Positions 882 through 5,414 of a stretch of 64,000 nt of DNA are shown piece by piece (the stretch's first letter is position 1; every line of letters begins with the position of its first letter). The translations under genes and the position numbers were made by a program. The stretch lies in contig PUDQ02000001.1 of assembly GCA_002964805.2 (NCBI GenBank), positions 7,898,001-7,962,000 on the forward strand. Reading direction: 5' to 3'. Below the pieces are notes generated by a model. That model was not told the origin of the DNA and ran no database searches. It saw only the letters and a program-made list of their open reading frames with translations. The stretch is from Trametes villosa. Lineage: Eukaryota; Basidiomycota; Agaricomycetes; Polyporales; Polyporaceae.

Positions 882-1649
882 GCTGACGAATGGGCCTTGA
901 CGACCTTACGTTCGTCCCCGGGTGATGTACTGCTTTGCAGGCGTTTTGTTCTGCCCCTTCGGGTCGCGGTGCTAGCAGTCACGGACATACAGAGATGATT
1001 GGACTTGGACTCGTACAGCATGTGTACTATCACTCTAGAGCTAGATTCGTCCCTGGCTCGTAAAAATAAAGCTTCATCCTCACGCATGTCAAAGAACGCC
1101 TTACCTGAGCCGAAGTCGACGCATGGGGCGTGGCCAATTTTTCTGCGCCTGCTCCTCGTACATACCACGCGTCCCTACGGCAAAGCCACTAGCGCCACCG
1201 CCCAGTTTACAGTCCGTATAAAAGACGTACTGCGTAGCGCCACGCGCATACACTGTGCCCCCGGGGATGACGACAGAATGGGGGTAGCGAGGCGTCCGGG
1301 GTTGTGTCCACGCAAGCCAGGCGGCGGGCGACATTCGGAACAAGTGCTGTATGGAGTTCGCAGATAGCGTCCGGCGAGCATGCGTTTGTCCACAAGTTGT
1401 CGTTCGCGGTGGAGCAAGCTCTCGGGCGGGCATAGTATGATGGGGTTCTCATAAGCAGCTGCGCTCCAGGCAGGGGCGAAACGAAGGCGTTCGGGCAGCA
1501 GGGTGCATATATGCCTGTGAATAGATGTGAGTGTTAGCAACGAAGGCGACAACCAAACTCAAAGCCATCACCTACGGATCCGCCAGTACCCGCCGACCGC
1601 CACTGCCCTAGTTCATGACCAAGTATACATCTCGTCGTACGCCAGCATC
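882..1649. other. Intergenic, 768 bp
   Basis: 3' flank of the DUF6534 gene and 5' flank of the pheromone-like ORF. I see no conserved protein block or RNA gene here. Confidence 0.5.
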
Positions 1650-1760
1650 ATGGACGCTCTGTTCACAATTGCACCTCCGGTCCCGGTCGACGAACCTGCC
1701 GGGGACGTCCTGTACGATTGCGAAACCGGGGGCAGTACCGGAGCCTGCATCATTGCTTGA
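1650..1760 (+). CDS. Candidate lipopeptide mating pheromone precursor (36 aa, CaaX)
   Basis: A 36-codon intronless ORF with the layout of agaricomycete B-locus pheromone precursors. It starts MDALFTIAPPVPVDE, has an acidic middle and ends GGSTGACIIA. The start MD-x-x/F, the Gly/Ser run before the terminal Cys and the C-terminal CIIA are those of farnesylated and carboxymethylated mushroom pheromones. A Cys-Glu-Thr sits where the maturation cleavage (usually after or at an E-R, E-H or similar pair) would fall, which would release a peptide of about 8-9 residues. In known systems the mature peptide is secreted and recognised by STE3-type receptors. The ATG has a good context (CATCATGG). No receptor gene is present in the window, so this could be an orphan pheromone or the edge of a B locus. 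At 36 aa it is short for the family and the cleavage pair is unusual; a chance ORF cannot be excluded. Confidence 0.6.
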   Translation: MDALFTIAPPVPVDEPAGDVLYDCETGGSTGACIIA

Positions 1761-3796
1761 CGCACCGCGTCGGCCGATTGGGTAAGTGGCAGCATCTCGT
1801 GGCGGTTCGAGGAACTGATACGGACCGCGATTTGTCTCCGTAGACGTGCCAAAGTCGCTGTCTACCTCGACATAGATTGAGCGTTGGACCATCGCCGTCG
1901 TATTCGCTGGCATCTAGAAGGGGAAGAGCTGTCGAGACTCGAGAGTTTCGGTCAGCCTTAGCATAGACAAGGGCCAGTCAGGTTGGAGCACTGTGGGAGT
2001 AGTCGTACTAGTGTTCATGTTTGTGTTGTCCCAGGCGAATACGAAGAGACATCGACTGTGGCAGCTTGAAATCTCATATCCGCAATCACGGAAGTTGTTG
2101 CGTATCAATATCGATGAGACGACTACAGCAGGACAACGATAGTACAAGACTCATAACGTCCATGAGTCGCCACTTAGTTGCCCTGCAACAGCCGCACTGT
2201 CAGGAGGATCAGGACCTGCCGAGTTTGAGTTTGACGGTTCGAAGCACGAACGACACGCCCTGTCCGTCGCTCGCGTGCGGGGCACTCTGCCGGTTGCTTG
2301 GTGTATCCTGCCGAGCCCGGGCGTACTGCGCAGTCGGCGGAGACAGATTTAGCAGATTTAACCTTTCGCTCGCGGCAGGGGAAGCTTCTCGTAGATCGCT
2401 TGGCCGCGATGTCAGATCCAGGGAACCAATGTGGAGAGCAGACACAGAAGCACTCATGGCCAAACAAGTGCCACGAGGTGGTAGTGGTGGTTTGAGGCAA
2501 CCTTAGTGGACGCGATCGACCCGGAGTCTCAGACTCGCTCGCTCCGAATGGTGCCTGCCTCGGGGCCGCTGCCCTGGACGTATATTAATCTCTCCTTTCA
2601 CTCGCCGACACCTTGTGCCTGCTTCAACTCGACCAATTTCTCGCAAGCAGACCAACGGCGTCGCCGCGCGCCACCAAGCAGAGTTGTCACGTACCTCCGC
2701 AGCACCTGTGCTATGACGTCCTGTCCGTCGCGGCACGCGCGACATCCGCTGCTGCGCACAGGCCGCTCCGAGCTGTCCCTGCCCCCCTGCCTCTTCCGGC
2801 AGGGTTCATTCATCTTCCCCCCCTCACCGAATACCAGTCCAGATCGCGTCCCTGGCACGCCATTCCAAAGTCTCCTCCCTTCCGGAACCCTGCGCCTCGC
2901 AAGCTTAACCTTCCCCCGATCGGGGAAGCGCGTTCCTCGACCCTTACTCTCCGGCGCGCCGCCCTCGATCGCGTGGCCGGGGCAGGGCGCGATCGATGTC
3001 CGTGCTGTGGGTCCCGTTCGGCACGCTCGCGTTGTGGGTCCCGCGAACGGCAGTCATTTTGCCGCATTCCTCCTTCACCCCGTCTTCCATGACCCGCTCC
3101 GGCCGTGCCGCCTTCGCCCTTGGCTCTCTATCCGCCGCCCGGCATCTCAAGCAGGCGCGATCGCAGCCCCTATGCCCGAGTCGGATGACGTGCACGCTCG
3201 GACCTTGCGGATGATGATGACACGACCGCCCTAGGAGGCAGGTCCCTGTGCATTCCCTGGGTGCACTATTACGCGCCCGCGCTTTGCGGCGGACGCGGCT
3301 ACGTACGCTATGGGGGGTGGGGCGACTCATGTCTGGACAGGGTGGGGGTAGGGGGGGAGAAGGAATGTGGGGTGGTAAGCACGCGGTTAGATTAGGCCCT
3401 AGGGGCGCGACGAGTGTCCGTGACAGGTCGTAAGTGAGAGGTCCGAAGATGTACAAAGGAAAACAGGGAAGCAGGGCTGGGGTCCTATCGCGACAGAAGG
3501 GAGTGCTACTCTACACAGTCTGCGGTGCGTGCGGTACGGATGAGGGAGGGTGCAGCTGATGCAAGAAGTACACCGTGCCGGGGCGGGGGTCATAAATACG
3601 TGAGCGAGATGTGTGGGGGGATTAGGGTGGCCTCGTGTGCGATGGGGTAAACTGACGATGAGCCGGCCGAACCGTAGGATAGCAGGGCACTGTGCGTTGT
3701 CCACACACCAATCCGAGAGTCCCGAGAGAAATCCGAGGAAAGGAGGGTCCTGATGCTCCCAAACCAAGCTCTGGCGCGCGAGAGCGCACGACCCGA
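1761..3796. other. Intergenic, about 2.0 kb
   Basis: Both strands were read for conserved blocks and none was found. The long frames at 2500-3240 are GC/Pro/Arg-rich without hydrophobic periodicity and look like chance ORFs. A G-rich stretch occurs at about 3310-3380. Confidence 0.5.
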
Positions 3797-5414
3797 TTAC
3801 GCCAGGACGACCGCCGCGATGAGCGCGGACACGCCCGACAGCAGGCCGGAGGCGAACACGGACGCGGCGGAGTTGTTGTTCGCCGCCGCGCCGGTCGCCT
3901 GGCCGCTGGGGGCTGACGAGCTTCCGGAGCCGCTCGAGCCGTTCGCGCTGCCGTTCGACGTCTTGCCCGAGTTGTTGCCAGCGGGCGCGGACGTGCTCGT
4001 GGAGCCCGCCGAGGAGCCGGACTGCGAGGCGGCGGCGGACGAGGAGGCGGGGGGCGCGGACGCGGCGACGCCGACCTGGCCGGGGTTGACGTCCTCGGTC
4101 GAGCTGGCCGCGTTCTGGTAGACGTCGCCGCCGTCCATGCGCGCGAGGGACTCGAACTTCCAACCGTTCTGCTGGATGAGGGGGAACGCCTGCATGAACG
4201 CGCCGACGGTGTTGTTCGTCAGCTCGTGCTCGAGGATGACGAGGCCGGGCGACTTGGGGCCGGTGATCCACTTCTGGAGGTTGGTGTCGACCTCGGGACG
4301 AGTGGCACCGCCGGGCGAGCCGATGCTCCAGTCCTCAGTGCTGTGTGCTCGTTAGTGTCTGCATGATAATGCTTGCACAGTCACACGCACTCCTGGTTCC
4401 AGATGACAGTGGTCAGGCCGAAGACCTCCTTAGCGATAGCGCGGACACGGTTGTCGGAGTCGCCGTAGGGCGGGCGCCAGTACTTGGCAATGCGACCGCC
4501 GGTCGAGTTGTGGATAAGCTGCATGGTCCAGCCGAGCTCTCCAAGGACCTCCTCGTTGGTGAGGGTGGTCATGTACGGGTGAGTCCAGGTGTGCACGGCG
4601 ATGTCGCCTACGCAACGCATCAGTCAGCGGCTGCGGCTCGGTCAATGCGCGAACAAAACGCACTCTGGAGGTCCTCGAACGCCTGCGTGAAGCCGGTGGG
4701 CGAGTTGAGGATGGCCTTGCCGATCATGAAATGGGTAGTGATGACTTTGTTCTCCTTGAGGAAGTTGTAAAGCGTAGGGGAGAACTGCGATTGGAGTGCA
4801 TGTCAGCCTCCCACTCCTAAATTCTCAGAAGTGCGCAACTCACCTCCGTGGGGCCGTCGTCGAAGCTCGACGCGAATACACCGTCAGGGGCATCCCAGAT
4901 ATCGCCCTTGTTGCGGCACTTGTATGTCGCAGAGCAAACGACGTCGCCGAGCGGGTCGAGGCCCTTGGGGTACGTGGGGTTTTGGTTCGGCACATTCGTC
5001 GCAACCGGAACGTCGGCGGGGATCTTGCCCGCAGCGATAGCGGCAGCGAGCGCGTCCGTCCACGCCTTGGGGAGCGCGGCCGTGTCGACCTTGTCCGGCG
5101 GGTAGCCGGCGGACCACTCTGCAAAAAATAACGGCGGGCGCTTTTAGCGGGAAGAGCGCGGGGGTCGCCGGTTTTTTTTACGCACCAGGAGAGCCAACCG
5201 CGGCGTAGGTGACGCCGTCGTTCGGGACGTCTGCGCGGCGGAAGAGGGCGTGCGCGGGGTGGTCCTCGCGCTGGTACCAGGTGGAGGGGAGGGCCCTGTT
5301 CACGTTGTGATCGTGGTCGTGGCTGTCGTGCGGGTTTGCTGATGGCGATGCGGCGGCAGAGGTCGAGAGGAGGGCGGTGGCGGCCAGGAGGAGAAACGAG
5401 CGGACGGCCGGCAT
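3797..5414 (-). CDS. Chitin deacetylase, secreted and probably GPI-anchored (461 aa)
   Basis: Exons (minus): 5414-5186, 5118-4844, 4784-4664, 4607-4391, 4340-3797; phases close exactly. The enzyme removes acetyl groups from cell-wall chitin to give chitosan. [23 protein letters not shown] is a clear signal peptide. The NodB fold (about residues 165-360) keeps all carbohydrate esterase 4 motifs: [26 protein letters not shown] and ILEHE, so it should be catalytically competent. Before it stands [20 protein letters not shown], typical of fungal deacetylases. The last about 110 residues are Ser/Ala/Gly-rich and end in a hydrophobic stretch ([19 protein letters not shown]) without a cytosolic tail, the pattern of a GPI signal. 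The start at 5414 is the one that opens the signal peptide. Confidence 0.92.

Follow-up and report, generated by a model that had tools for sequence, protein, structure and literature searches.

Pheromones of the a-factor type are farnesylated, lose the aaX residues, are carboxymethylated, cut and exported, and bind to STE3-type receptors. The processing of such pheromones is described in PMC8305134, and a range of 9–14 residues is given for the mature peptide in PMC4101180. In P. cinnabarinus, a fungus of the same group as the species studied here, four mutually similar precursors resemble non-mating-type peptides, according to the excerpt of PMC4101180. For Agaricus bisporus, the excerpt of PMC8305134 places three of the four non-mating-type (phl) genes on chromosome 1 and the receptors on chromosomes 5, 12 and 13; the transcripts of three of the four phl genes, namely the three that are expressed, contain an intron in the 3'UTR. 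More work on what the non-mating receptors do is called for in the excerpt of PMC8970355, in whose annotation CaaX matches far from STE3 genes were discarded as false positives. Among the papers listed by literature searches on unlinked, orphan and non-mating pheromones, none deals, by title or start of the abstract, with an unlinked phl gene in Trametes; a prior report could be present in James et al. 2013 (Mycologia 105:1374, Polyporales mating systems).

The open reading frame (ORF) considered here lies in a window of 64,000 nucleotides (bases 7898001–7962000 of the 9.75 Mb contig C1) of the Trametes villosa genome, which comprises 46.7 Mb in 140 contigs. It is probably a genuine, intact gene that codes for a farnesylated pheromone-like peptide of the non-mating type (phl). 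The gene would be a dispersed copy within its family, the six remaining members of which flank a cluster of STE3 genes on contig C10.

Precursor Gene and Its Predicted Product

The ORF occupies positions 1650–1760 of the forward strand, from an ATG at 1650 to a TGA stop at 1758–1760, and encodes a product of 36 amino acids, MDALFTIAPPVPVDEPAGDVLYDCETGGSTGACIIA. Its assignment to the phl precursors is based on the sequence itself, the paralogues, the relatives in other species and the tree. The 36-codon CaaX ORF exists as the initial annotation described it, with a good start context of the ATG (A at −3, G at +4) and a CIIA end. Short length, an MD/MDA-F start (here MDALF) and a C-terminal CaaX box are features of a pheromone precursor; the Gly-rich mature end and the membership of a mutually similar group are those of phl precursors. 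The conserved N-terminal block MDALFTIA (1650–1673, forward strand) has the family form MDAFF[TV]IA, F4 being replaced here by L. The CaaX box C-I-I-A (1746–1757, forward strand) is recognized in the sequence and in the alignment.

The charged cleavage pair, also expected in the initial annotation, is not at its proper place. None of the dipeptides ER, DR, EH, NH, EE and DE (list from the excerpt of PMC8305134) is found in the window ORF at the expected distance from the CaaX box; D23-C24-E25 is present instead, with a Cys between the two acidic residues. Since DR occurs in just two of the six C10 paralogues and a charged pair is missing in the other four (alignment read by eye), such a pair is not strict within the group.

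Farnesylation of the 36-residue precursor could take place at C33, with removal of IIA and carboxymethylation. According to the alignment with the paralogues, the precursor would be cut in the acidic centre before E25, giving a predicted mature peptide of 9 residues, ETGGSTGAC (1722–1748, forward strand), which is three residues shorter than in the aligned C10 paralogues. It could be secreted in about this form as a short Gly-rich lipopeptide and recognized by an STE3-type receptor whose gene lies elsewhere.

An intron is predicted in the 3'UTR (1782–1843, forward strand); counted from the stop codon, its donor GTAAGT is at +22, its branch site CTGAT at +55 and its acceptor end at +83. Similar donor, branch and acceptor signals are located at +22, +61 and +82 in c169, at +21, +60 and +86 in c189 and at +31, +67 and +87 in c184 (paralogues named by their position on C10, see below). 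A fixed intron signature, defined after the window and paralogue genes had been viewed, was found in the window gene, in three of the six paralogues, in one of the five other C10 pheromone genes and in 407 of 80,000 random places. Upstream, a TATA-like element TATATGCC (1508–1515, forward strand, −142 from the ATG) and, at about −115 on the same strand, TAGCAACGAAGG, which resembles the paralogue motif CAGCGAA, are consensus matches only; such matches also precede several paralogues. HMG-type ACAAWG boxes are absent from the 600 bp upstream of all seven phl-type genes (the window gene and six paralogues). As a post hoc observation, ACAAWG (HMG-box-like) sites occur in the 600 bp upstream of all five B-type pheromone genes of C10. 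No Rfam family matched the window at the gathering score.

Paralogues and the STE3 Cluster on Contig C10

A protein search of the genome with the window ORF returned the ORF itself and six places, all on C10 between 168.9 and 209.0 kb (168.9, 170.6, 172.7, 183.6, 189.2 and 208.9 kb; c169, c171, c173, c184, c189 and c209), with 50–64% identity over the full length (E 5.2e-7 to 0.43). The identical seven places were obtained with the T. versicolor relative P0014 as the query (E 5.9e-11 to 1.3e-4). All seven copies start with MDA-[FL]-F-[TV]-IA, are acidic in the centre and have a Gly-rich end with a CaaX box, which in c171 is followed by TGG. Three protein queries and one pattern revealed no further unlinked copies in the genome.

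The STE3 search, which covers the best candidates scored, gave 18 matches in the genome at E ≤ 0.001, corresponding by position to six genes, all at C10:124.8–167.3 kb; among these candidates, none on C1 reached this threshold. Five dissimilar MD...CaaX precursors are located among the STE3 genes (150.9, 153.2, 157.7, 162.2 and 164.2 kb; range 150.9–164.4 kb). The positions of receptors and precursors thus indicate a B-type cluster on C10 with the phl-type family at its right side. The region C10:124.8–209.0 kb is dense: about 85 kb hold the six STE3 genes, the five dissimilar pheromone precursors and the six similar ones of the phl type.

The initial annotation had proposed a pheromone precursor gene, functional or orphan, perhaps marking the border of a B locus situated left of the window. 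The six paralogues beside the STE3 cluster, together with relatives annotated as pheromones, uphold the precursor, which is indeed an orphan in position, on a contig without an STE3 match, and is probably functional; as no STE3 match lies on C1, the edge of a B locus is wrong. A B locus to the left was rejected by the STE3 search, by the listing of CaaX ORFs (in the window and the 60 kb to its left, no other ORF combines an MD start with a CaaX end) and by tblastn with 39 short relatives, which found no second pheromone-like place in these 124 kb. Like a phl gene, the ORF has no paired mating-type receptor, and it does not lie in the B locus beside a receptor, as a B mating-type pheromone gene does (C1:7.90 Mb versus C10:125–167 kb). 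Since the nearer end of C1 is 1.8 Mb away, the gene would be far from the C10 cluster even on a chromosome that comprised both contigs. The one Mating_N (PF12731) match, which we take to be the A-locus HD1 gene, is located on C1, but at 1.755 Mb, 6.1 Mb from the window ORF.

Segmental duplication from C10 is not seen: blastn of C1:7894001–7906000 against C10:80001–250000 gave no match at E ≤ 1e-3, so similarity of the flanks is gone and the pheromone genes are alike as proteins only. No match to the chitin deacetylase that neighbours the window gene was found in C10:80001–250000.

Comparison with the pheromone precursor profile PF08015 yielded no match to the window ORF at E ≤ 10, and the ORF is absent from the six places of the genome-wide PF08015 search. 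The profile is insensitive (15.5 bits for P0014, no match for P0005 of T. coccinea); it matches all five C10 paralogues tested, two of them above the cut-off (22 bits). The one genome-search match off C10, C11:7220–7378 (19.4 bits, below the cut-off), was taken to be a chance match, as it falls within the 484-codon frame of a different protein that lacks a CaaX end.

The paralogue c171 (C10:170568–170684, reverse strand) ends with GSCTIAW, TGG standing in place of the stop. A putative 57-nt GC-AG intron (GCAAGC...CTGCAG) begins at the last base of TGG, and its splicing would create a TG|A stop after CTIA. P0029 and P0030 of T. gibbosa read CTIAW, and P0017 of T. sanguinea ends with CTIA. The W after CaaX in Flammulina FvPp1 (excerpt of PMC5100862) might be the same case. 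The CTIA box, with its polar residue, is shared by c171, P0017, P0026, P0029, P0030, P0035 and P0038; in the excerpt of PMC8970355, CpaX motifs in basidiomycetes outside Trichaptum are stated to be not known to its authors.

Relatives in Other Species and Synteny

At E ≤ 1, the profile searches yielded 23 and 32 proteins, several of them annotated as pheromones. Relatives named pheromone (precursor) belong to Trametes versicolor, T. coccinea, T. sanguinea, Ganoderma boninense and Gelatoporia subvermispora, and homology of the window ORF to named pheromones extends over its full length. A tree of 39 rows was calculated from seven sequences of this genome together with 32 of the 39 that came from databases (40 columns kept; P0001, P0029 and P0030 trimmed). 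P0009, P0022, P0023, P0034 and P0037 (odd or cut gene models) and the more divergent P0035 and P0038 had been excluded beforehand. The window ORF is grouped with P0014 of T. versicolor, its nearest relative (support 99/87), in a tree that leaves 18 of its 36 inner branches open and in which long rows, the window ORF among them, are placed with uncertainty. Several C10 copies have foreign relatives of their own (c173 with P0010/P0018, 97/82; c171 with P0029, 96/77), which suggests that this pheromone-like family is old.

Seven relatives are listed for T. versicolor FP-101664 SS1: P0004, P0007, P0008, P0010, P0012 and P0018 share a contig of 2.86 Mb, whereas P0014 is the only one on a contig of 3.86 Mb. 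The protein P0023 (VTO73DRAFT_14880) of another T. versicolor genome is identical to P0014 in its first 19 residues and then diverges, probably owing to a gene-model error. The neighbour of the window gene, a chitin deacetylase (polysaccharide deacetylase) with five predicted exons (3797–5414, reverse strand), recognized by PF01522 on its T. versicolor relative P0041, serves as a synteny marker. P0041 (VTO73DRAFT_14879) is the closest T. versicolor relative of this neighbour. From the consecutive locus numbers of VTO73DRAFT_14879 and VTO73DRAFT_14880 and their presence on the same contig of 1,262,263 bases, we infer that the pheromone and chitin deacetylase genes are adjacent in T. versicolor. 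The unlinked locus therefore seems to predate the split of the two species, and the T. versicolor copy is a probable syntenic orthologue of the window gene.

Among the best 120 of the 410 matches listed, the closest to the window chitin deacetylase are proteins of T. versicolor (80% identical), T. polyzona (77%), T. gibbosa (75%) and Lenzites betulinus (79% over 81% of the length), which places the organism probably in or near Trametes. In T. coccinea, P0005 (longest contig 3.39 Mb) is located neither together with P0003/P0034 (contigs of 0.64 Mb) nor together with the chitin deacetylase P0046 (0.66 Mb). Linkage was not seen in the contigs given for P0005 and P0046, and it may be absent in this species; as the P0005 cluster has two contigs, synteny in T. 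coccinea is not established.

Chance, Decay or a Maintained Gene

In a second-order Markov sequence of 7.44 Mb, ORFs of 25–110 aa with an MD start and a C-[VITAL]-[VILM]-[AS] end occurred twice, which corresponds, on the basis of these two events, to about 12.6 in 46.7 Mb. Such ORFs are thus not rare genome-wide, and the shape of the window ORF is by itself no proof of a gene. For 124 kb of C1, about 0.03 are expected from the same two events versus one observed among 813 ORFs of that length. It is homology that raises the ORF above chance: six paralogues, the N-terminal pattern and relatives in other Trametes. Seven sites in 46.7 Mb fit a degenerate pattern that describes residues 1–7, all of them in the family (six C10 copies and the window ORF), and none fits the reversed pattern used as a control. 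In tblastn against the 124 kb of C1, all 39 short relatives matched the window ORF (best E 1.6e-12); the next best place had an E of 0.014, and the next five best lacked a pheromone shape. For all the ORFs expected in a genome of such size, a chance ORF with a CaaX end is contradicted by full-length homology to paralogues and to relatives in other species, and its probability is negligible.

Compared with the window ORF, differences at codon positions 1/2/3 number 10/8/18 in c184, 8/7/25 in c209, 8/10/19 in c171, 12/8/24 in c173 and 11/10/18 in c169; against c189 (15/10/14) there is no third-position excess. When the same number of bases was substituted at random (5000 runs per paralogue), the observed amino-acid identity was reached in no run for c184, c209, c171 and c173, in 4 for c189 and in 50 for c169; identity, absence of stops, the start and CaaX were obtained jointly in 1 of 30,000 runs. 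Drift all along is rejected for the window ORF. Recent relaxation or loss of function is compatible with this test, because the paralogues themselves are constrained. Codon-position bias and the paralogue-like predicted 3'UTR intron argue for a maintained gene.

With respect to the family, the window ORF has F4L and an S-to-A change before C33; it lacks three residues in front of the Gly-rich end, and its acidic centre contains a Cys. Its end branch (0.65) is the longest among the own copies (P0014, 0.083), and its GC3 is 0.64 versus 0.88–0.98 in the paralogues. The long branch, F4L, the S-to-A change, the deletion, the Cys and the low GC3 also fit relaxed constraint. The gene could accordingly be a decaying copy, an orthologue of the T. 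versicolor gene that is losing function in its own species and survives as a still open relic; the deletion falls in the mature region, the Cys in the acidic cleavage site, and PF08015 matches P0014 weakly and the window copy not at all. We regard this as rather unlikely in view of the retained ATG, frame, CaaX box and intron signals, the third-position excess against five of the six paralogues and the rejection of drift all along, which does not extend to recent relaxation. A B mating-type pheromone relocated outside the B locus, with its activity on B receptors intact, is a very improbable explanation. The family does adjoin the STE3 cluster, but the gene has no receptor linkage, its family is a mutually similar group, and it is the five unlike precursors (C10:150.9–164.4 kb) that sit between the receptors; an active B-unlinked pheromone would presumably also upset B incompatibility.

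Proposed Role and Comparison with Known Systems

As a phl gene apart from the B locus, the window gene should segregate independently and could not carry B-allele identity. This independence and the absence of a receptor nearby favour a non-mating role, and the peptide would most likely act on a receptor without mating function or serve as a signal in fruiting tissue. A further proposal, to which we give little credence, is that a single-copy B-unlinked gene kept at one place across Trametes provides a mating-type-independent signal via a C10 STE3 receptor, for example in fruiting or self-sensing; the peptide, which would have changed fast in length and sequence in this lineage, may then denote the species and not the mating type. 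Being unlinked, with a probable syntenic orthologue, the copy could be removed or tracked through crosses while the B locus stays intact, and this makes the function of non-mating pheromone-like peptides and receptors in mushrooms testable.

The closest counterpart of the window ORF, P0014 of T. versicolor, shares with it 69% identity, the APPVPVDEP block, the CIIA end and a contig separate from that of the six remaining listed copies of FP-101664 SS1; VTO73DRAFT_14880 (P0023) has, by locus number, the same chitin deacetylase neighbour. P0014 retains F4 and GSC as well as the three residues that precede the Gly-rich end, whereas the window ORF has L4, the deletion and GAC. The B-type precursors at C10:150.9–164.4 kb share the MD start and CaaX with the window ORF, but are dissimilar to each other and to it and are interleaved with STE3 genes. 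As described in the excerpt of PMC4101180, the precursors reported there are likewise short (39–65 aa for seven), have an MDA/DF start and CaaX and are mutually similar. The phl precursors of A. bisporus resemble the window gene in their Gly-rich mature ends and scattered genes, and differ in their length (44–54 aa) and in the presence of a charged cleavage motif; this species is bipolar, and its phl genes have no mating-type role according to the excerpt of PMC8305134. The window gene illustrates that a filter by distance to STE3 genes can lose real pheromone-like genes, and it joins an already known group of pheromone-like precursors as a new unlinked member.
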